NCBI RefSeq assembly: GCF_003574835.2
Contig: NZ_CP063196.1
Location: 3,658,001-3,722,000 of the forward strand
Source: Thermobifida halotolerans
GTDB lineage: Bacteria; Actinomycetota; Actinomycetes; Streptosporangiales; Streptosporangiaceae
Reading direction: 5' to 3'
DNA length: 64,000 bases
The notes beneath the pieces were generated by a model, which ran no database searches, was not told the origin of the DNA, and saw only the letters and a list, made by a program, of their open reading frames with translations. The position numbers and the translations under genes are program-made. This document shows positions 10,063 through 22,166 of the stretch, piece by piece. Positions within the stretch are counted from its first letter, which is position 1, and every line of letters begins with the position of its first letter.

Positions 10063-10148
10063 GTTGGAGTGCCTTTCTCACTGAACAACAGACGGACACT
10101 GAAAAAAACCCGCGGGAACCCCGGTGTACCAGGGGATCTCGCAGGTAG

Positions 10149-10221
10149 TAGCGGAGGCCGGACTTGAACCGACGACACAGCGATTATGAGCCGCTTGCTC
10201 TACCGACTGAGCTACTCCGCC
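10149..10221 (-). tRNA. tRNA-Met, elongator (anticodon CAT)
   Basis: This is a 73-base cloverleaf with acceptor GGCGGAG/CTCCGCT, D arm GCTC...GAGC, anticodon loop CTCATAA and T loop TTCAAGT. The 1-72 pair is G-T and the T arm lacks initiator features, so it is the elongator methionine tRNA. No CCA is encoded. Confidence 0.92.
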
Positions 10222-10330: not shown

Positions 10331-10406
10331 TGGAGCCCCTTTACGGAATCGAACCGTAGACCTTCTCCTTACCATGGAGACGCTCTGCCGACTGAGCTAA
10401 AGGGGC
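10331..10406 (-). tRNA. tRNA-Thr (anticodon GGT)
   Basis: A 76-base cloverleaf includes an encoded CCA end. The acceptor is GCCCCTT/AAGGGGC, the anticodon stem TCTCC/GGAGA around ATGGTAA, and the T loop TTCGATT. It is followed 109 bases later by tRNA-Met in the same orientation. Confidence 0.94.
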
Positions 10407-10529: not shown

Positions 10530-12611
10530 TCAGTCCGCCACCCAGACGTTGGACATGGCGTCGCGCTGGATGGTCCGGATGGTCGCCGCAAGACCGAGTC
10601 TGCGCAGCGCGTCGGGCAGGCGGGTGTCGTGGGTGAAAACGACGAGCTGGCGGTGGCGTCCCACCTCGGCCAGCACCGCGGCCAGCCCTTCCACGGTCTC
10701 GGTGTCCATCGCCTGGACGGGGTCGTCCAGCAGCAGGAAGCCGAACGGGTTGCCCGGCACCAGGGTGCGCGGCAGGCAGATGGACAGCGCGAGGGCCTGG
10801 AACTCGCCCTGGCTGAGCAGCCCGGGCGCGCTGTCCGGCCCGTCGGTGCCGTCCACGCTGACGTCGACCGCGACCCGCCGCTGCGCCCCCCTGCCGACCA
10901 GACGCAGCGACGCCAGGTCGATGTGCCGCTCCTGACGCAGCCGCGCCCACACCTTCTCGGCCTGGGCGGCCAGGGGGTTCAGCCGCTCGGCGCGCATCTC
11001 GCGGGCCACCGCGGTGAACCACTCGAGGGCCTGCCGGGCCGGTTCCAGCCTCCGGTGCGCCGTGAGCGCCTCACGCGCGTCCTCGACCCAGGCGCCCAAC
11101 TGCTCGGCGAGTCCGGCCCATCCGTCGGTGGGGTCGGTGAGGCGCTCGGTGGCGGCCTTGCGCGCGGCGATCGCGGCCGAGCGCAACCGCCGCCCCTGGG
11201 TCTCGATGTGCGCGGCCAGTTCCGCCAGGTCGGTGATCTCGGCCCCGGCCGCCCAGTCGGCCCAGATCCGCCCCAGTTCGCTGTCCGGCGGCAGCCACGA
11301 GGGCGGCGGCGCCATGAGGAAGCGCGCCTGGTCTCGGGCGTCCTCCGCGCGCTGGTAGGCGGCGGCGGTGCTCGCGGCGACCGGCTCCAGCCGGGCGATC
11401 TCGGCGCGGGCCCGGTTCACCCAGGCGGGCCCCAGCGCGTTGTGGGCGCCGCAGGTGGGGCAGTCGGTCTCGGCGGGGTGCCGCTCGTGGTGGTCGAGGG
11501 CCTGCCGCAGCAGTTCGACCACGCCGCGCGCCCGGTCCCCCTTGGTGCCCGCGGCCATGGCGATCTCCATCGCGGCCCCGCGCAACTCACTGACCACGTC
11601 GTTGATGAGGGAGCGCTCGGGCACCGCCAGGCGGCGCAGGCGGCGCAGCACGACCTGCTGGGCGGGGTCGGCGGGTCCGTCGTCGGCGGCGATGGCGGAG
11701 AGTCGGTCGAGGTCGAGGGAGGACGCGGTCAGCAGTTCGGCGGCGGAGCGCGCCCGGGGATCGGCGCTGGCACGCAACTGGTCCAGCAGGTAGGGCAGGT
11801 CGCGGGCGGGCCGCTGCTCGGTCTTGGCGAGCTTGTCGCAGGCCCGGGCCAGGCGGCGTTCGGTCTCGGCGAGTTCGTTCAGGCCGAGCAGCGCGGTCAG
11901 GGTGTCGTACAGTTCGGCCGACCGCCCGGTGACGGTGCGTCCCAGTTCGTCGTAGGAGAGGAACGGCCGGTACCTGGAGAGGTCCTCGCCCCAGCCGAGG
12001 CTGGCCAGGCTGCCGGTCTCGCCCGTGGGCAGGACGACCTCGCCGCGTGCGGAGCGGACGCTGTCGCCGGTCCAGACGCGGGTGACCCGGGTGGTTCCGG
12101 GCTCCCCGGCGCGCTGGAGTTCGACGGTGACCTCGGTGACGTCGTCGAAGTGCAGGTTGCGCCAGCCGTCGCGCCAGGCCGCGGGCATGCCGTCCCAGCG
12201 CAGGTTGCGTCCGGTCAGCGCGGCCTCGACGGCCTCGGCGAAGCTGGACTTGCCGGAGCCGTTGCGGCCGACGATCACGGTCAGGCCGGGACCGGGCGGG
12301 AACTCGAGGGTGGCGGCGCGTCCGATGCCGCGGAAGCCCTGGACCCGGATCCGGTTGAGATAGCAGCGGCGGAAGTTCCGTGCCGGCGTGACCGGTTCGG
12401 GGGGCGGGTAGGGCAGGTCGATGCTCTCCCCGCGGGCGCAGGCGGCCAGGGCGTCGTCGCCGTGGGTGGCCGCGACCACCCACTGGCGCGCCACAGGGTC
12501 CAGTGGTGATCGGGACAGCCGGTCCCACAGGACTCCGGTCTGGGAAGACGCCGTCTGCCGCCCCGGCTGGTCCGCGGAGAATCCGTGCTGGGAGGTCGTC
12601 ACCGTCGTCAC
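10530..12611 (-). CDS. Rad50/SMC-like AAA ATPase with a zinc-hook CxxC
   Basis: The 693-residue protein has a roughly 85-residue N-terminal extension, then an SMC-type ATPase head. The head shows LNRIRVQGFRGIG, Walker A GRNGSGKS at residues 115-122, an ABC signature LLSQGEF near 598, Walker B GFLLLDD near 625 and an H-loop VVFTHD. Between the heads are helical segments and a single CPTCG (Cys384, Cys387) that could form a Rad50-style zinc hook. The coiled coil is short compared with Rad50. It sits directly downstream of the JetABC-like genes, where a JetD nuclease would be expected in a Wadjet operon, with a 162-base gap. The start is GTG at 12609-12611 after GGAGCAGG. A DNA-end or plasmid-directed role is inference. 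Confidence 0.72.
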   Translation of the reverse strand: MTTVTTSQHGFSADQPGRQTASSQTGVLWDRLSRSPLDPVARQWVVAATHGDDALAACARGESIDLPYPPPEPVTPARNFRRCYLNRIRVQGFRGIGRAATLEFPPGPGLTVIVGRNGSGKSSFAEAVEAALTGRNLRWDGMPAAWRDGWRNLHFDDVTEVTVELQRAGEPGTTRVTRVWTGDSVRSARGEVVLPTGETGSLASLGWGEDLSRYRPFLSYDELGRTVTGRSAELYDTLTALLGLNELAETERRLARACDKLAKTEQRPARDLPYLLDQLRASADPRARSAAELLTASSLDLDRLSAIAADDGPADPAQQVVLRRLRRLAVPERSLINDVVSELRGAAMEIAMAAGTKGDRARGVVELLRQALDHHERHPAETDCPTCGAHNALGPAWVNRARAEIARLEPVAASTAAAYQRAEDARDQARFLMAPPPSWLPPDSELGRIWADWAAGAEITDLAELAAHIETQGRRLRSAAIAARKAATERLTDPTDGWAGLAEQLGAWVEDAREALTAHRRLEPARQALEWFTAVAREMRAERLNPLAAQAEKVWARLRQERHIDLASLRLVGRGAQRRVAVDVSVDGTDGPDSAPGLLSQGEFQALALSICLPRTLVPGNPFGFLLLDDPVQAMDTETVEGLAAVLAEVGRHRQLVVFTHDTRLPDALRRLGLAATIRTIQRDAMSNVWVAD

Positions 12612-12773
12612 AACACCTGCTCCGTTCGTGGCCTCGCCTTTGCAGATTAGGACAGATGGGGCGAATTACGTAGCGATCGCCGACTTTCGGCGGCGGGGCG
12701 GACGCGGTGTACCGCTTCCGCTCCGCCGCCACGGCCCTCCCGCTGCCCCGATCGACAACAGACGTGGCCGATA

Positions 12774-15700
12774 TCACACTCCGTTGAGGCGGCGTCGGTT
12801 GCCGTCCCAGGTGAAGTGCAGGGTGGCGATCCCGGGTTCGGCGGGGTCGCGCAGACACTCGTAGATGTTGAGCCGGGGAACGCTCGGGAAGCATCCCCAG
12901 ACGCGTTCGGAGGTGAGCACGAAGTCGAGGTCGAGTTCGACGAGCATGCCGAGGAGCCGACCGTGGGTGGGTTCGTCGACCTTGGCGAAGGCGTCGTCGA
13001 GCAGGATGAGTCGGGGGGTCTGCGGCGCGTCCAGCGCCAGCGCGCTGAACTGGGCCGCCGCGGCGGCGAACAGCACCAGGTAGGCGATGACCCGCTGCTC
13101 CCCCTGGCTGAGGGCGGTGCGGTGGGTGAGACGGCGTTCGCGTTCGGGATGCGCGGCGTCGGTGACGTAGACGGTGAAGGCGAACCAGGAGCGGTAGTCC
13201 AGGGCGGCACGCAACTGTGCCCCTCCGGTGGCGGTGGGATCGAGGCGGCGGATCGCCTCGATGCAGCGGCGCAGGGCGTCGCGCAGGCGGGTGGTCTCGA
13301 CCCGGGTGCGCTTCTCGGCGGGGCGGCTCAGCAGCGGCACCACCGCGTGGATGTCCTCGTCGGCGTCGGGGGCGAGTGTCCAGTCCAGGCGGACCCCCAG
13401 CCCCTGGGAGGTGGTGACCTCGCCCAGGACGCTGTTCATGGCGGCGATGAGTTCCCGCGCCTCGTCGATCTGGCGGGACAGGTGCCCGGCGAGTTCACCG
13501 AGGAGATGCCGTTCGTAGGCCTCCTCCTCGCGCACGGCCGCGGTCTCCTCGGCCTCGGCGATGGCCTCGCGCAGCCGTTCGGCGTAGTCGACGATGTCGT
13601 GCGCGCCGTGGTCGTCGTGGATGGTGACCCGCTTGACGCCCGCGGGCTCGGCGAGCTCGGTCCGGGCGCCGAGGGCGGGGGCGGCGGCCAGGCCGCGGTG
13701 CAGCTCCTCGTGGCTGCGCAGGATTCCGCTGTCGTCGATGTCGGAGTCGGCGGGGTCGAGCCCGGCCTCGACCGCGGTGACCAGGGCGTCGAGGTTCCTG
13801 ACGCGTTTGGTCAGTTCGTCGCCGTGTTCGGGGTCGCTCTCCGTCTCGTCGTAGGCGGCGACGGGTCCTCCGGGCGCGGCGAGGTCGAGAAGCCCGGCCG
13901 CGGCGAGCAGCCCCCGGTCGACCTCTCCGGACGGGGCGGCGAGCACGGCCCGCAGGCGGGCTCCGGCGGCCAGGGCGCGGCGGGCCTGCTCGGCCCGTTC
14001 GACGGTGGCGGCGCCGTGCCGGGTCTCCGCCGCGACCCGCTCGTCGCGGGCCCGCTGGGCGTCGCGTTCGAGTGCGGGCAGGGCCTCGTCGACCGCGCGG
14101 GCGCGGGCGCGCACCTGGGCGACGGCGGTCTCGACCTGGGCCGGGTCGGCGACGCGGGCCCGGTCGGTGAGCTCGGTCTCGCGGCGGACGGTGATCATGT
14201 CGTTGATGGCGGCGCCGGCCGCGTCCTCCGCGACGACGCGGGCCTCGCGGGCGCGTTGCCAGTCGGCGACGTGCTGCCGGTAGTCCTCCAGGCGGCCCGC
14301 GAGGATTTCGAGGTCGCGGTGGGCGGCGGAGATCTGCACGCGGAGCATGCCCAGGGAGCCGCGGATCTTGGCGAGTTCCTCGTAGTGGGCGGGCAGGCGG
14401 TGTTCCAGCGCGGGTTCGACGAGGGCGGCGCGTTGGGCGAGCGCCGTGGTGCGGGCGGCGTCGGCGGCGGCGCGGGCCGCGGTGTGGTCGCGGACGGCGG
14501 CGGCGAGCCAGGCGCGGGCGTCGTCGAGGACCGCCCAGGCCGCGACGAGTTCGGCGCCCGAGGGCACGGAGCGGTTGATCCGCAGCAGGCTCTCGTGCCG
14601 GTTGTCGATTCCCGCGCGGCGCTCCTGGGCCTCGGCGAGCAGCGCCTCGGCCATCTCGATGCGCCGCTCCGCCTTGGCCCGGTGGCGCTCCAGGGCCTGG
14701 GCGCGGGCCGCCTCGCCGATGTACTCGGCGGCGGCCTTGTGGTGGGATCCGTGGGCGACACCGAGCCGCCAGCGTCCGTCGAGGGAGACGTAGTTCTCCG
14801 GGCGGCGGCGGGGGCCGGTGGTGCTGTGGAACCAGGAGGTCTCGGACTGGGGCTGCTGGTCGTCCTCCTGGTCGGCGTGGAGCCGGACGGAGGAGAGGAT
14901 GGCGACGACGGTGCTGCGGCTGATCTTCGGGGCGTCGGACTGTTCGAGTGGGACGAGGACGTCCAGGAGGGTGCGGCCGCGCAGTGGTTCGGCGGGGCTG
15001 AGCAGCAGGTCGCGGGTGTTGTGGTCGACGACGGTGCCGTCGGGGGTGATGAGTCCGGAGAGGAGGCCGGACGCCTCCAGGGCCGCTTCGAGTCCGGCAC
15101 GCTCCTCGGAGGAGAGGTGGTCGGTGAAGTCGACCGCGAGGTACAGGGGGACTCCGGCGTCGGGGTCGCGCGGCGCGGTGGCCCAGGCGGGGCGGGGCGC
15201 GGTGACGGGCGCGGCGTCGTCGGCGCGGCGCTCGGCGAGCTCGTCGAGTTCGGCGGCGAGGTCGCGTTCCTCACCGATGGCCGCGTCCCGTGCCTCGCGT
15301 ACCCGGTCCAGCAGTGGCTCGACGATGGCGTGGGCGTCGCGGGCGACGGTTTCGGGCAGGGCCGAGGGCAGGACCCGGAAGTCGTCGTCGAGTGGGGGCT
15401 CGACGCTCTCCTCCAGGGCGTCCAGGGCGGCGTCGATGTCGGCGTCGGGTGCCGCGGCGCGCAGTGCGTTGCACCATTCGCGCACGTCGGCGGCGTAGTC
15501 GGTGCTGGCCTCGCGGACCTTCTCGATGGCGGCGTGCTCGCGTTCACGGGCGCGTTCGACGTGGTTGTCGGCCCACTCCGCCTCGCTGTTGAGGTCGGCT
15601 TCGCGGCGTTCGGCCGTCTCGAGTTCCAGCGCTCGCCGGTAGAGGTCGGCGACGGTGGCCTCGCGTTCGGCCGCGGCGGCGTCGGCACGGCCGAGCCGGT

Positions 15701-17126
15701 CGTGCAGTTCGGCGAGCCTCCTGCGCAGGGCGGTGACCTCGATCCCGGGCACGGGCGGGCGCTCGACGGCCTGTTCGAGCCCCTCGAGGTTCACCTGGGT
15801 GGTGCTCTCGCGCGGGGCGAGGGTGACGCGGACGGTCTGCGGGACCTCGCCCAGGGTGGCGGGGTCGATTCCGGAGGCGCGTGCGGCGTCGCGCAGGCCG
15901 ATGTGGAGGCGGCGCAGGCTGCCGATGCCGCGTTCGACGGCCGCGGTGTCGGTGGCGAGGCGGCGGCGGGCCTGGGCCTCGGCGGTGCGGGCGTACTCGC
16001 CGGCGACCCAGGCGGCCTCGGCGGCCCGGATGTAGGCCGACACGGCGGCGTGGCGGGCCTCGCGTTCGGCTCCGGTGGGCCCGTCCGCGGTCTGCGCCGC
16101 GCCCGCGCTCAGTGTCGCGGCGTCGGACTCGGCGGTGTCGCGGCTGCGGCGCAGGCGGTCGCGTTCCTCCTGGGCGCTGCTCTCGGCGGAGACCAGGGAG
16201 TCGAGTTCGGACTCGAGTCGGGCGAGTTCGGTGTCGCGCTCCTCGAAGGCGGTGATCTGGGCACGCACGGTCTCCGCCTGCTCGCGCAGAACACCGTGCA
16301 GGTAGCCGCGGTAGTCGCCGAGGAAGGCGGTGGCGTGCTCCTGTGCGGTGCGCAGGGCGGCCAGCCGGGCGCGGGCGCCCTCCAGGTCGGTGATGTTGCG
16401 GGCGACCTCGTCGAGGATGGCGTCGTCCATGGGCGGCAGCGCCTCGGAGAGCACGGACACGAGTTCGCCCGCTTCGAGGCGTTCGCCGACGGTGGGACGG
16501 CGCAGTCGGTAGAGCAGGTGGACGAGGTTGCGGTACCGCATGGGGTCGTTGAGGCCGAACAGGTCGCGCATGACCCGGGTGCGGTAGCCGAGCGCGGTGT
16601 CGTAGCAGTTGTCGGGGCCGACGGCGGCGCGGAGGCGTTCCACCGACAGGGGGCGGTCGCCGTCGACGAGGACCAGGTCGTCGCCGACACGGCGGTCTGT
16701 GACGAAGAACACCGCGCGCGCCTCGGGATGGTCGGGCACGGCGATGACGGCGGCGCCGAGGGTGCGCCGCTGCGGTCGGCCCTCCTCGCCGCGTCGGACG
16801 AACTCGACCCACAGGTAGCCCAGGCTGGTGTCGCCCGCCTCGGCGGTGGCGGTGTCGCCGGTCTCGGTGGCGGTGCGTCCCTCGAGCATCAGCCAGCGCA
16901 GGCTGGTGCGGCTGGTCCCGGTGGTGTCGAGGCGGCGGGCGTCGCCGTCGAGGAGGAAGGGCAGCAGCATCTCCAGCGCCTTGGACTTGCCCGCTCCGTT
17001 GCGTCCGCGCAGCAGCAGGCGTCCGTCGGCGAACTCGAAGACGTGGTCGTCGTACTGCCAGACGTTGTGGATTCCGGCGCGTTCGAGCCGGTAGCGCTTG
17101 GGGAGGGTCGTGTCCTGTCGGTTCAT
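12774..17126 (-). CDS. jetC: Wadjet type II SMC ATPase, JetC-like (TIGR02680 family)
   Basis: A 1450-residue MukB/SMC-like protein starts at ATG 17124-17126 after GGAGGACGG. The N-terminal head has YRLERAGIHNVWQYDDHVF and Walker A GRNGAGKS at residues 41-48. Long heptad-like, Ala/Arg/Glu-rich coiled coils fill the middle. The C-terminal head carries signature LSQGEQ near 1339 and Walker B LILLDD near 1373, with AFAKVDEPTHGRLL. This arrangement and the KRYRLERAGIHN opening identify the TIGR02680 family, JetC of Wadjet type II. Such complexes extrude plasmid DNA for cleavage by JetD. jetB lies 163 bases upstream. No JetD is visible, so activity as a plasmid-restriction system is doubtful. Confidence 0.82.
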   Translation of the reverse strand: MNRQDTTLPKRYRLERAGIHNVWQYDDHVFEFADGRLLLRGRNGAGKSKALEMLLPFLLDGDARRLDTTGTSRTSLRWLMLEGRTATETGDTATAEAGDTSLGYLWVEFVRRGEEGRPQRRTLGAAVIAVPDHPEARAVFFVTDRRVGDDLVLVDGDRPLSVERLRAAVGPDNCYDTALGYRTRVMRDLFGLNDPMRYRNLVHLLYRLRRPTVGERLEAGELVSVLSEALPPMDDAILDEVARNITDLEGARARLAALRTAQEHATAFLGDYRGYLHGVLREQAETVRAQITAFEERDTELARLESELDSLVSAESSAQEERDRLRRSRDTAESDAATLSAGAAQTADGPTGAEREARHAAVSAYIRAAEAAWVAGEYARTAEAQARRRLATDTAAVERGIGSLRRLHIGLRDAARASGIDPATLGEVPQTVRVTLAPRESTTQVNLEGLEQAVERPPVPGIEVTALRRRLAELHDRLGRADAAAAEREATVADLYRRALELETAERREADLNSEAEWADNHVERAREREHAAIEKVREASTDYAADVREWCNALRAAAPDADIDAALDALEESVEPPLDDDFRVLPSALPETVARDAHAIVEPLLDRVREARDAAIGEERDLAAELDELAERRADDAAPVTAPRPAWATAPRDPDAGVPLYLAVDFTDHLSSEERAGLEAALEASGLLSGLITPDGTVVDHNTRDLLLSPAEPLRGRTLLDVLVPLEQSDAPKISRSTVVAILSSVRLHADQEDDQQPQSETSWFHSTTGPRRRPENYVSLDGRWRLGVAHGSHHKAAAEYIGEAARAQALERHRAKAERRIEMAEALLAEAQERRAGIDNRHESLLRINRSVPSGAELVAAWAVLDDARAWLAAAVRDHTAARAAADAARTTALAQRAALVEPALEHRLPAHYEELAKIRGSLGMLRVQISAAHRDLEILAGRLEDYRQHVADWQRAREARVVAEDAAGAAINDMITVRRETELTDRARVADPAQVETAVAQVRARARAVDEALPALERDAQRARDERVAAETRHGAATVERAEQARRALAAGARLRAVLAAPSGEVDRGLLAAAGLLDLAAPGGPVAAYDETESDPEHGDELTKRVRNLDALVTAVEAGLDPADSDIDDSGILRSHEELHRGLAAAPALGARTELAEPAGVKRVTIHDDHGAHDIVDYAERLREAIAEAEETAAVREEEAYERHLLGELAGHLSRQIDEARELIAAMNSVLGEVTTSQGLGVRLDWTLAPDADEDIHAVVPLLSRPAEKRTRVETTRLRDALRRCIEAIRRLDPTATGGAQLRAALDYRSWFAFTVYVTDAAHPERERRLTHRTALSQGEQRVIAYLVLFAAAAAQFSALALDAPQTPRLILLDDAFAKVDEPTHGRLLGMLVELDLDFVLTSERVWGCFPSVPRLNIYECLRDPAEPGIATLHFTWDGNRRRLNGV

Positions 17127-17289
17127 CGGCCGTCCTCCGCTCCGTACCGCTCGTGCTGGTGCCCACCGCGCCGGACGGTCGGTGCGCCGGGGGTGGTGCC
17201 ATTGTCCCGGATCGGCGAGGTGTTGGGGAGGCTCTTGTCCGTGCTGTGGACGAGTGACGCGCTGGGCCCGTCCGGGGGGAGTTGTCCGC

Positions 17290-18498
17290 TCATTCCGCGC
17301 CGCTCCGGGGGAACGCCGAGTCGCGGTAGCGCGCGGCGGCGGCGAGGAGCCGCCAGCCCGCCGTCGGGTGGTCCGCGTCCACGGCGACGCGGTCCAGCAG
17401 ACGGCTGTCGCGGAGCAGTTGCAGGACACGTGCGGCGAGGTCGTCGGGGTCGGGGACGTGGCTGAGGACGGTGCGCGACCACTGCCGGGTGTCGTCGTCG
17501 ACGACCGAGGCGAGTTCGGCGTCGAGCAGCTCGGCGGGGATCGGGACGGCGTGGCTGAAGGACGGTGGGGCGAGCATGGTGGCGAGGCGGGACAGCAGGG
17601 TCAGGGCGGCCTGGCCGACGGGGCCGGGGCCGGGGAAGGTCGCGGGCTGCTCCGCTCCTCGGGCGTCGGCCGCGGTGTCGCCGGGCATGATCAGGGCCAC
17701 GCCCTCGGCCCGGACCTCGGTGTCGCAGCCGAGCAGTTCGGCGAGTTCGGCCGCGGCCCGCCACTGGTGTCCGGCGAGTCGGGCGCGGTGGGCGGTGTCG
17801 AGTTCCGTGCGGTAGATGACGGCGGTCTCGGCGAGGAGGCGACGCAGGGTGAGTTCGACCGCGCGGGCGTCGGAGGAGACGGCGTCGCTCTGGGTGAGGT
17901 CGATGAAGTCCTCCGGGGTGGTGGTGGAGTGCGGTGCGCGGGCGAGCACGTGCGCGGCGACCCCGTGGTCGACGTCCAGGGCGACCTCGCGGGTTCCGTC
18001 CGTGGCGTAGTCGGCCAGGCTGCCGCTGGTCTCGGTGAGCGCGCCCCAGGCGACGAGCCTGGTGAGCCCGGCGACGAAGGCGCGGCGCTCCCCGAGGCGG
18101 CTGCGGGGGTCGATGTCGAGTCCGGCGTCCCGGGCCGCGGCGCGCACTCCGGAGGCGAGCTCGGCGACGGTGGTGCGGGGGTCGGCGTCGGCGAGGGCTG
18201 CGAGGGTCAGGGTCAGATAGGTGTAGGCGCGGGGGGTGAACGGTGCGCCGCTGTCCCGGTGCAGCGGGGTGGCGACCGTGTGGACCAGGCCGGTCTTGAC
18301 GAGCCTGGCGTGGTCGTCGGCGACGACCAGTTCGTAGCCGAGGACGCGCTGGAAGCGCCGGATGAGCCAGTCGGAGTGGGCGTGGACGAGCGCGAAGTCC
18401 TCGGGGTGGCTCCGCGCGGTGATGAGCGGGTCCGTCAGCAGTCGACGGGCCGCGGCCTGGCGCTCGATGGTGAGAGCGATGTCCTCCTTGGCCGCCAC
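17290..18498 (-). CDS. jetB: Wadjet type II kite-like subunit, JetB (TIGR02678 family)
   Basis: The 402-residue soluble protein is rich in winged-helix-like segments. The order ARRLLTDPLITA, WLIRRFQRVLGYEL, HRDSGAPFTPRAYTYLTLTL and LVAWGALTETSGS matches the TIGR02678 family that accompanies TIGR02680 ATPases. In Wadjet it is a small regulatory subunit bound to the SMC heads. The start is GTG at 18496-18498, with a purine-rich GGAAGG about 13 bases before it, so the start is uncertain by a few codons. It is followed by jetC and preceded 66 bases upstream by the jetA fragment. Confidence 0.78.
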   Translation of the reverse strand: MAAKEDIALTIERQAAARRLLTDPLITARSHPEDFALVHAHSDWLIRRFQRVLGYELVVADDHARLVKTGLVHTVATPLHRDSGAPFTPRAYTYLTLTLAALADADPRTTVAELASGVRAAARDAGLDIDPRSRLGERRAFVAGLTRLVAWGALTETSGSLADYATDGTREVALDVDHGVAAHVLARAPHSTTTPEDFIDLTQSDAVSSDARAVELTLRRLLAETAVIYRTELDTAHRARLAGHQWRAAAELAELLGCDTEVRAEGVALIMPGDTAADARGAEQPATFPGPGPVGQAALTLLSRLATMLAPPSFSHAVPIPAELLDAELASVVDDDTRQWSRTVLSHVPDPDDLAARVLQLLRDSRLLDRVAVDADHPTAGWRLLAAAARYRDSAFPRSGAE

Positions 18499-18564
18499 GG
18501 TCTGGCGTCACCTTCCTGACTGGTGCGTGTTGGGTGGGCTTGCGGACGGTCGGGAGCGGGGCCG

Positions 18565-19329
18565 CTACGCCTGGGGGGCGGTGGTGTCCGGCGTCCCGTC
18601 CGTCTCCGTGTCGGTCTCCTCCGCCCCGTCCCGATCGTCCCGGTCCTCGGACCCGTCCCGGTCCTCGGTCTCCTCCGCCCCGTCCCGGTCCTCGGTCTCC
18701 GACCGGTCGAGGTCGACCTGGGCGTAGGAGGTGGCGCGCAGCCGCAGCCCGTTGAGGGTGAGATCGCCGCCGTCCTCTCCGATGACGAGTACGGCGCCGG
18801 GATCATGGCGCACGTGCAGGCGGATGTCGAGTTCGAGGTCTCCCGCGCTGACCGGGCCGGCGGTCGCGTCACCGGAGCCGAGGGCGCGGGTGAGGAGTTC
18901 CATGAGGACGCCCAGCGCGGCTTCGGCCATGGCGAGACGGCCGGTGCGGGGGGTCGGTGCGGCCAGCAGGGAGCGCACCTCCTCGGCGGCGGAGCGCCGC
19001 CAGTGGGCGGCGGCCTCGGCCGTGTCGCGCAGCCGCGCCTGCTGTGCGCTGTGGTCCTCCACCGCGGCGAGCGAGCCGTGGCCGCCGGGACGCGCCGTCG
19101 AGGTGTCGGCCGCGGGGGTGTCCCACCAACTGGCCGCCGCCGCGACGGCGTCCTCGGTGCTTCCGCCCAGGTGCCTGGCCGGGTAGAGGGCGAACGCGGC
19201 GGTGTACAACCGGTGCGCGGTGGCGGTGTCGGCCTGCTCGAACCAGGACGCCAGCCTGAGCACGGCGGCCCGGCCGTGCGGCGTCTCCGCACGTCGGCTC
19301 TCCGACTCCCGGATCACTGAGTCACCCAC
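18565..19329 (-). CDS. Truncated JetA-like protein (TIGR02677 C-terminal half) with acidic repeat tail
   Basis: The 254-residue frame opens at GTG 19327-19329 and soon reads AAVLRLASWFEQADTATAHR and AAFALYPARHLGG, which normally lie in the second half of TIGR02677/JetA kleisin-like proteins of about 500 residues. Nothing resembling the N-terminal half is found in any frame up to the next gene, so this looks like a 5' deletion. The last 45 residues are almost only D, E, R, T, G and S in imperfect repeats (TEDRDGAEETEDRDG), unlike the rest. The start has a poor ribosome binding site. It may be a remnant or a shortened but expressed kleisin. Confidence 0.65.
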   Translation of the reverse strand: MGDSVIRESESRRAETPHGRAAVLRLASWFEQADTATAHRLYTAAFALYPARHLGGSTEDAVAAAASWWDTPAADTSTARPGGHGSLAAVEDHSAQQARLRDTAEAAAHWRRSAAEEVRSLLAAPTPRTGRLAMAEAALGVLMELLTRALGSGDATAGPVSAGDLELDIRLHVRHDPGAVLVIGEDGGDLTLNGLRLRATSYAQVDLDRSETEDRDGAEETEDRDGSEDRDDRDGAEETDTETDGTPDTTAPQA

Positions 19330-19472
19330 ACCTCAGCAGACTAGAGACATCCCGCTACTGTTGCGTCCCGAATCCGCTGAGATCTGGCTCGCTCCTGTCC
19401 GAAATCCAGGTTGTGAGCTGCCGATTCACCGGGAGTGGAAGTCTTGGGAACCGGTGCGCACCGGGCCGGGTC

Positions 19473-19512: not shown

Positions 19513-20232
19513 TCAGTCGCGGTCCTTGGCGTAGTCTCCCGAGGTCTCCCAGTCGAGGAGGACGACGGTCTGCTCGCCGACCACCCAGGCGTCGTGTCCG
19601 GGCGCGATCCGGATCGTCTCGCCCTGCGCGGCCTCGAACTCGCTTCCGTCGGCCATCCGGATGCCGAGCGTGCCGGAGAGGATGTAGCAGAAGTGGGTGT
19701 AGGTGCACAGGTCGGTGCCCGCGATCGGCTTCACGTGCTGCGACCAGCGCCAGCCCGGCTCGAAGACGGCGCGGGAGACGTCGTTTCCGTTCATCCGGAG
19801 CAGTTCCACGCGGCCCTTCTCGAAGGTGCGGACCTCGTCGGCGTCGGCGAAGGTCCGCTTCTGGGTGCGCGGCGGAGTGGCGGTCCCGCTCTCGTCCCAG
19901 GCCTGGACGCTGGACTGCCGCACGATCCTGCCGCTGCGCAGGTCGAGCATGGACATGACCATGACCTTGGAGTCGTCGGGGTAGGTGCACCTCTCGACGT
20001 AGGCGGCGTGGTCGCCCTGGACGACGAACTGCTGGACCTCGTGGCGCATGTCCTGGGCGAAGATGTCGCGCAGCGACCTGCCTATGGCGTCGCGGCCGTG
20101 CAGTGCCAGCGGTTCGCTCGGCGGCCGGGTCTGGTCGATGAGCACGTAGTCGGCGTCGTTGTCGAACCTGGCGAGTATCGCGTCGACGTCGCGGCTTTCA
20201 ATGGCGCGGCTGATCTCTTCCTGAAGAGTCAC
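19513..20232 (-). CDS. SnoaL-like/DUF4440 domain fused to a C-terminal cupin domain
   Basis: The 239-residue protein falls into two folds. Residues about 1-110 are a SnoaL/DUF4440-like domain (ISRAIESRDVDAILARFDND, RDAIGRSLRDIF). Residues about 135-235 are a cupin with the two conserved blocks (PGWRWSQHVKPIAGT and THFCYILSGTLGIRMADG...GETIRIAPGHDAWVVG). The metal-ligand pattern of the first cupin block is incomplete, so binding may not involve a metal. The GTG at 20230-20232 was chosen for the strong GGAGGCAGCC before it. Function is unknown, possibly a small-molecule sensor or isomerase. It is co-directional with the TetR gene 124 bases upstream. Confidence 0.75.
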   Translation of the reverse strand: MTLQEEISRAIESRDVDAILARFDNDADYVLIDQTRPPSEPLALHGRDAIGRSLRDIFAQDMRHEVQQFVVQGDHAAYVERCTYPDDSKVMVMSMLDLRSGRIVRQSSVQAWDESGTATPPRTQKRTFADADEVRTFEKGRVELLRMNGNDVSRAVFEPGWRWSQHVKPIAGTDLCTYTHFCYILSGTLGIRMADGSEFEAAQGETIRIAPGHDAWVVGEQTVVLLDWETSGDYAKDRD

Positions 20233-20356
20233 GGCTGCCTCCAAACCGGGGTCCCGGTGGTTCCCCTCATAGGTCAGCCTGCACACGGCGGGCCCCCGGA
20301 GTAACCCAAGCCGGAGTCATCTCCGCGTGAAGTCTTCGGGTGCGCTCCGGTCGGCC

Positions 20357-22075: not shown

Positions 22076-22084
22076 TGTGAGGTG

Positions 22085-22166
22085 TGGCAGGTGTAGGGTT
22101 CGAACCTACGTAGGCTGAGCCGGCAGATTTACAGTCTGCTCCCTTTGGCCGCTCGGGCAACCTGCC
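22085..22166 (-). tRNA. tRNA-Tyr (anticodon GTA), class II with long variable arm
   Basis: This is an 82-base cloverleaf with acceptor GGCAGGT/ACCTGCC, anticodon stem GCAGA/TCTGC around CTGTAAA, a long variable arm and T loop TTCGAAC. The anticodon GTA and the class II shape identify tyrosine. CCA is not encoded. Confidence 0.94.

Follow-up and report, generated by a model that had tools for sequence, protein, structure and literature searches.

What remains of a Wadjet system when the nuclease JetD is missing and JetABC is kept? A four-gene operon on the minus strand of a 64,000-nt stretch of the Thermobifida halotolerans genome (NZ_CP063196.1, positions 3,658,001 to 3,722,000; hereafter the window) raises this question. 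The host has a 5.5-Mb genome and belongs to the same genus as T. fusca. The operon encodes, in order, a short JetA, JetB, JetC and a Rad50/SMC (structural maintenance of chromosomes)-like ATPase, and is followed by tRNA-Thr and tRNA-Met genes. An earlier note on this DNA gave the coordinates (10530-19329) and the gene content correctly, and proposed either a decaying Wadjet locus or a variant in which the ATPase replaces the nuclease module. On balance, we favor a Wadjet type II core that was domesticated without its nuclease, is resident in the Nocardiopsidaceae chromosome, is paired with a Rad50-like ATPase and probably acts on the chromosome. The locus looks like a defence system that has taken on a new role.

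A Wadjet type II core followed by a Rad50-like ATPase

JetB, the KITE subunit (17290..18498, minus strand), is full length. It matches DUF2398 over model positions 1-362 of 363 (271 bits) and the PADLOC JetB2 model at 4e-97, and scores 102.9 bits against TIGR02678 (model 1-354 of 376), below the cut-off of 124.65. JetC, an SMC/MukB-like motor (12774..17126, minus strand), is full length from an ATG at 17126 and matches TIGR02680 from end to end (model 1-1356 of 1356, 817 bits); the core residues of its Walker A, signature and Walker B motifs are identical in 33/33 aligned rows. These matches and invariant residues bear out the view that both proteins are full length and that the ATPase motifs of JetC are intact, and a TIGR02680 motor with intact motifs and a KITE subunit are what a Wadjet type II locus is expected to contain. 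By eye, the gap between JetB and JetC holds no convincing extra frame in five loci, the frames not having been searched against families.

The fourth gene (10530..12611, minus strand) occupies the usual jetD position and encodes a 693-aa ATPase with a CPxC zinc-hook-like motif (C384, C387). The order jetA-jetB-jetC followed by a Rad50-like ATPase in place of JetD, as first described, is thereby confirmed at the window. A tRNA-Lys called by ARAGORN inside the ATPase gene on the opposite strand (11793-11881, plus strand) is probably a false call.

A fixed and inherited chromosomal locus

We surveyed 341 genomes of the GTDB family, the host included. ATPase matches at E 1e-40 or better occur in 96/341 genomes, and matches of about 58% identity or more in 72/341. 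The 72 carriers account for all surveyed genomes of 18 genera (40/40, 6/6, 6/6, 4/4, 2/2, 2/2 and 12 single-genome genera). Presence counts were taken from the listed rows, and JetABC was checked in fetched stretches and named loci only. Carriers include Thermobifida, Nocardiopsis, Streptomonospora, Marinactinospora, Murinocardiopsis, Actinorugispora, Allosalinactinospora, Marinitenerispora and Allonocardiopsis, together with strain YIM 96095 and one metagenome-assembled genome named to class only. They are mostly genera of the NCBI Nocardiopsidaceae, in which Allonocardiopsis is not listed.

From a 150-genome sample we fetched 34 stretches belonging to 33 genomes. The tRNA-Thr and tRNA-Met genes stand just after the ATPase in 33/34 stretches; the 34th, which is half of one genome's locus, ends at a contig end. 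In the window these fixed landmarks are tRNA-Thr(ggt) at 10331..10406, directly downstream of the operon, and tRNA-Met(cat) at 10148..10221, both on the minus strand. A tRNA-Tyr upstream, at 22084..22166 (gta, minus strand) in the window, marks the same chromosomal locus and is found in 26/34 stretches. The tRNA-Thr/Met pair occurs in 0/11 stretches of other Jet loci and in 0/20 stretches of distant ATPases, some of the latter being short. The span first assigned to the locus covers its genes, and leaves out the flanking tRNA genes that define it as well as the start block at 19327-19348 described below.

The A-B-C-ATPase order on one strand is found in 29 fetched stretches and the window. Among 50 named loci, partly from the same genomes as the fetched stretches, all four genes are matched in 42 (41 on one strand; at L181 the ATPase is reversed), and five more show JetC before the contig end. 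Adjacency can be judged in 48 of these loci, the contig ends being too close at L148 and L152, and holds for JetC and the ATPase in 47, so that the ATPase is linked to jetABC in relatives. We conclude that the locus is fixed and inherited, and is not an accessory island.

At L148 (N. suaedae) JetC lies on another contig, and the contig with the ATPase stops 1.2 kb upstream of that gene. In Nocardiopsis endophytica (L146) the contig that holds JetC ends about 500 bp past it, and a transposase-like frame is seen by eye about 8 kb upstream of the ATPase. The window encodes a SnoaL-like and cupin gene (19513-20286, minus strand) immediately upstream of the operon; similar sequence is found in only 3/34 fetched stretches, which makes the stretch from tRNA-Tyr to the operon variable in content.

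Absence of the JetD nuclease

The JetD model TIGR02679 is silent at the window's locus and throughout the host genome, in agreement with the earlier claim that JetD is missing; 14 control genomes are silent too. The model works in this family, where it matches in 81/150 genomes and gives the JetD at the Thermobifida locus L126 a score of 225 bits. At this locus the JetD nuclease of a Wadjet type II operon was found in none of 34 carrier genomes. Matches are present in 16 of the 34, some of them fragments and all away from this locus, and 18/34 have no match anywhere, absence in most genomes being based on this single model.

These counts bear on the possibility of a rewired defence, in which JetABC would go on opposing plasmids or phages without JetD. 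The Rad50/LmuB-like ATPase would be its sensor or regulator, and foreign DNA would be clamped or silenced, as has been proposed for Smc5/6, or else attacked by a nuclease encoded elsewhere. We regard this as rather unlikely. All of the Jet parts descend from an anti-plasmid system, and 16 carriers have JetD matches elsewhere in the genome. However, the 18 carriers without any match speak against it, as does an operon in which we found no nuclease or other effector, and presence across a whole clade at one place is unlike the sporadic spread that sections of PMC10586767 report for Wadjet and Lamassu.

A short JetA with a conserved start

The short JetA (18565..19329, minus strand; 254 aa) is only the C-terminal part of a kleisin, with about 200 conserved residues and a variable tail. 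It matches TIGR02677 at model positions 294-478 of 494 only, under the cut-off, Pfam DUF2397 at 292-481 of 483 and PADLOC JetA2 at 314-509 of 512. All three models thus support the original description of a C-terminal half, and the full-length kleisin of Wadjet type II is absent. Among TIGR02677 matches listed for the 150 genomes, those at this locus (28 rows) start at 288-304 and those elsewhere mostly at about 2. When residues 1-345 of the complete Allonocardiopsis JetA were used as the query, the window gave no significant match (best E 0.34), nor did the remaining 33 fetched stretches and 49 named loci, and no N-terminal half accompanies the gene there. Aligned with the 500-residue JetA of the solved structure 9qe0, the kept part starts near residue 315-320, without a match to about the first 315; this alignment and a published review set the limits of the lost part. 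The JetA and JetC of 9qe0/9qe1 were assigned to type II by sequence match.

Judged by its conserved start, JetA is short in 31 of the 32 loci that hold a JetA. A TAGTCT-like box precedes the start codon in 31/31 short-JetA loci, the window included, and is spaced 8 nt from it in 28. The consensus of this start block is GTCttTAGTCTGCtGAgTT, followed by GTG; in the window it occupies 19327..19348 (minus strand), with the −10-like TAGTCT 8 nt before the GTG of the short JetA. The block was not found in the Allonocardiopsis stretch (L104), which has the one full-length JetA. Its sequence points to a promoter of the leaderless type. The presence of the block at every short-JetA locus marks the short JetA as a genuine gene. 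As for a possible regulon, the block has one exact site in the genome and one more with two mismatches, and the reversed-pattern control gave 1.

The other option first offered for the locus, a decaying Wadjet II that has lost jetD and half of jetA, accounts for the missing parts, and the host does carry a truly decayed Wadjet remnant elsewhere. Decay of the operon itself is nevertheless highly improbable, being contradicted by its retention across 18 genera, the purifying selection described below, the invariant core ATP motifs and the conserved block before the short JetA. The remnant, from another Wadjet II (host contig C1, ~98-99.7 kb; L223 1977-4262, minus strand), joins a JetA (TIGR02677 25-379) and a JetC fragment (1018-1203) in one frame. 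It ends in a HicA/PDC-M06A-like tail and adjoins a PDC-M06B-like gene.

Common history and purifying selection

In a quick JetC tree without bootstrap, the 33 rows of this locus form one clade (SH-aLRT, a Shimodaira-Hasegawa-like branch test, 99), with Allonocardiopsis (L104) as its deepest branch and L103 as the next. Of the rows with JetD, those closest to it are L126 and L127, a second, canonical Wadjet of Thermobifida. The frames were chosen by similarity; two long, oddly composed rows (L015, L135) fall outside the clade, and four rows from the superoxide dismutase locus described below are partial (789-856 aa). Allonocardiopsis has a full-length JetA and an ATPase gene convergent to JetABC. 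Because of this single early branch, JetD may have been lost and the ATPase gained first, JetA being truncated and the ATPase joined to the operon later.

The ratio of nonsynonymous to synonymous substitution rates (dN/dS) in 10 pairs is 0.20-0.34 for JetB, 0.18-0.35 for JetC and 0.12-0.27 for the ATPase, with 0.15-0.37 for the neighbouring MurB. JetB, JetC and the ATPase are under purifying selection, with ratios similar to those of MurB.

Could the ATPase be a core gene that merely lies beside a separately inherited JetABC remnant at a tRNA locus? Its convergent orientation in Allonocardiopsis, its separation from JetC in N. endophytica with both genes kept, and its slower change (mean pairwise distance 0.29 vs 0.46 for JetA or JetB) all lean that way. 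Against this stand the shared strand and order in the 29 fetched stretches, the adjacency to JetC in all but one judgeable locus, and the correlation of pairwise distances between ATPase and JetC (r 0.95, or 0.93 without L103 and L104), which is on a par with that between JetB and JetC (0.94) and exceeds those of the ATPase and JetC with MurB (0.81 and 0.82, respectively), a shorter and noisier protein. We therefore judge chance neighbourhood to be distinctly unlikely.

The Rad50/SMC-like ATPase

The ATPase matches the SMC_N and AAA_23 families. The core residues of its Walker A, signature, Walker B and CPxC (C384, C387) motifs are invariant in 53 rows (25 distant relatives). With its AlphaFold model (predicted local distance difference test score, pLDDT, 88.2) as query, Foldseek returned SMC and Rad50 heads first (5xei, 3e-13; 7zr1) and then JetC structures; chain 9uxh_F of a type II Lamassu (LmuACB with DNA) stood at rank 37. 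The nearest PADLOC models are mad3 (1e-24) and, second, LmuB (1.7e-17). As both are defence ATPases, these matches and the Lamassu chain add to the case for a rewired defence. Membership in MADS on the strength of the mad3 match was not accepted.

The idea that the ATPase replaces the nuclease module holds for the anatomy, since the gene stands in JetD's place and its divergence tracks that of JetC more closely than that of MurB. In function the replacement is hypothetical: the protein has SMC/Rad50 features with no nuclease domain among the matches listed, and its gene also occurs convergent to JetABC in Allonocardiopsis.

Remote homologues of the ATPase, at 34-46% identity and mostly ~820 aa long (L105-L124, L188-L215), have other surroundings. 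In 20 stretches (L105-L124) no JetA, JetB or JetC of the window's type was found, and in 15 of them a small conserved frame lies right behind the ATPase. Three of the small proteins gave no clear family match, and this may be an uncharacterised system. A fragment in the host (C1:2879382-2879657; L125) shares 52% identity with residues 599-690 of the ATPase, at its C-terminus, and is perhaps a remnant of the long form.

A second JetABC lineage without JetD

A second JetABC lineage adjoins a superoxide dismutase (sod) gene in 13/20 stretches (L137, L224-L234, L238; genomes G102, G073, G076, G021, G054, G056, G128, G080, G107, G146, G124, G008, G045). Four JetD queries located the nuclease gene at one locus, that of Marinactinospora (L238, G045), where it lies between JetC and sod, and found none at the other 12. 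TIGR02677 matches are long at all 13 loci, starting at model position 3 or 4 and ending at 418-491, and the JetC of the 12 loci forms one group in the tree with that of L238 (row L134). As this lineage parallels that of the tRNA-Thr/Met locus, JetD has probably been lost with JetABC kept at least twice in this family.

A proposed function and the evidence against it

The precedent for a domesticated core is MksBEF, which portions of PMC10586767 propose to be a nuclease-loss derivative, thought to have lost JetD and working on the chromosome. We propose that JetC and JetB, with the C-terminal domain of JetA on the JetC head, would form an ATP-driven DNA clamp or loop extruder that does not cut. 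In JetABC and MukBEF the kleisin N-terminus links paired motors (PMC10586767, in part); its loss would therefore leave a single motor, or motors bridged by the hook ATPase. That ATPase might sense DNA structures such as ends, junctions or stalled forks, as thought for Rad50 and LmuB, which excerpts of PMC10586767 describe as probable sensors of unusual DNA structures, and might load or regulate JetABC there. The likely use would be chromosome upkeep. The housekeeping SMC, to which this search was limited, is intact; the operon would thus be an addition, and we reject the idea of a substitute for that SMC.

More tentatively, the operon could represent a new class of SMC machine, a possibility that we hold at well below even. 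In such a machine the kleisin would not span from neck to cap, there would be no closed ring or linked motor pair, and a Rad50-type hook ATPase would bridge, load or sense, the whole being a core chromosome-maintenance complex of an entire family. If a short kleisin works, it raises the question of which kleisin parts a loop-extruding SMC needs. Allonocardiopsis, with its full JetA and reversed ATPase, persists as an early branch. T. fusca carries the operon and no other JetA, JetC or JetD by these models, and offers a clean test system.

Several observations weigh against domestication as a chromosome-acting complex. An intact housekeeping SMC leaves no vacancy to explain the recruitment. The orientation of the ATPase is reversed in Allonocardiopsis, and in N. 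endophytica the ATPase stands without JetABC within 10 kb and JetC is kept on another contig, so that the two may act apart. The ATPase is split over frames in two genomes (G179, G198), as is JetC. JetA has a dN/dS of 0.18-0.57 (9 pairs), higher than its partner genes in some pairs, and the N-terminal stretch in the C1 remnant (model 25-379) could in principle act in trans, a possibility tempered by T. fusca, in which only the short JetA was found. Defence genes, moreover, can be common: Wadjet is given for 42% of Actinobacteria in a section of PMC10482375. Finally, the clade was delimited by the gene's own presence, plus a check of named genera only.

Comparison with known systems

With Wadjet type II (JetA2-JetB2-JetC2-JetD2) the operon shares JetB, a full JetC, the C-terminal part of JetA and the gene order; it differs in having no JetD, in its fourth gene, a Rad50-like ATPase, and in being core and vertically inherited. 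Among the titles and abstract openings listed for open-licence PMC papers, we found none on a JetABC that lacks JetD and is accompanied by a Rad50-like gene in this family.

The ATPase resembles LmuB of Lamassu in that both are SMC/Rad50-like ATPases of ~650-700 aa with short coiled coils (LmuB as characterized in parts of PMC10586767). Neither an LmuA effector nor LmuC was seen beside it, and its partners, the other three operon genes, are JetA, JetB and JetC. With SbcCD/Mre11-Rad50 it shares a Rad50-like head fold and the CPxC hook motif, but it is shorter, its relatives at 34-46% identity stand apart from JetC, and the operon, to which the search was limited, encodes no Mre11/SbcD nuclease partner.

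A further parallel is MksBEF, the nuclease-free condensin of Pseudomonas aeruginosa. As in such a nuclease-free SMC-kleisin-KITE complex, the nuclease is absent at this locus, yet here the kleisin is truncated. This locus bears on the question of how SMC complexes move between defence and chromosome roles as a case separate from MksBEF, with an origin in Wadjet type II, a home in the Actinomycetota, a kleisin of which only the C-terminal part is left and a hook ATPase as an extra component.

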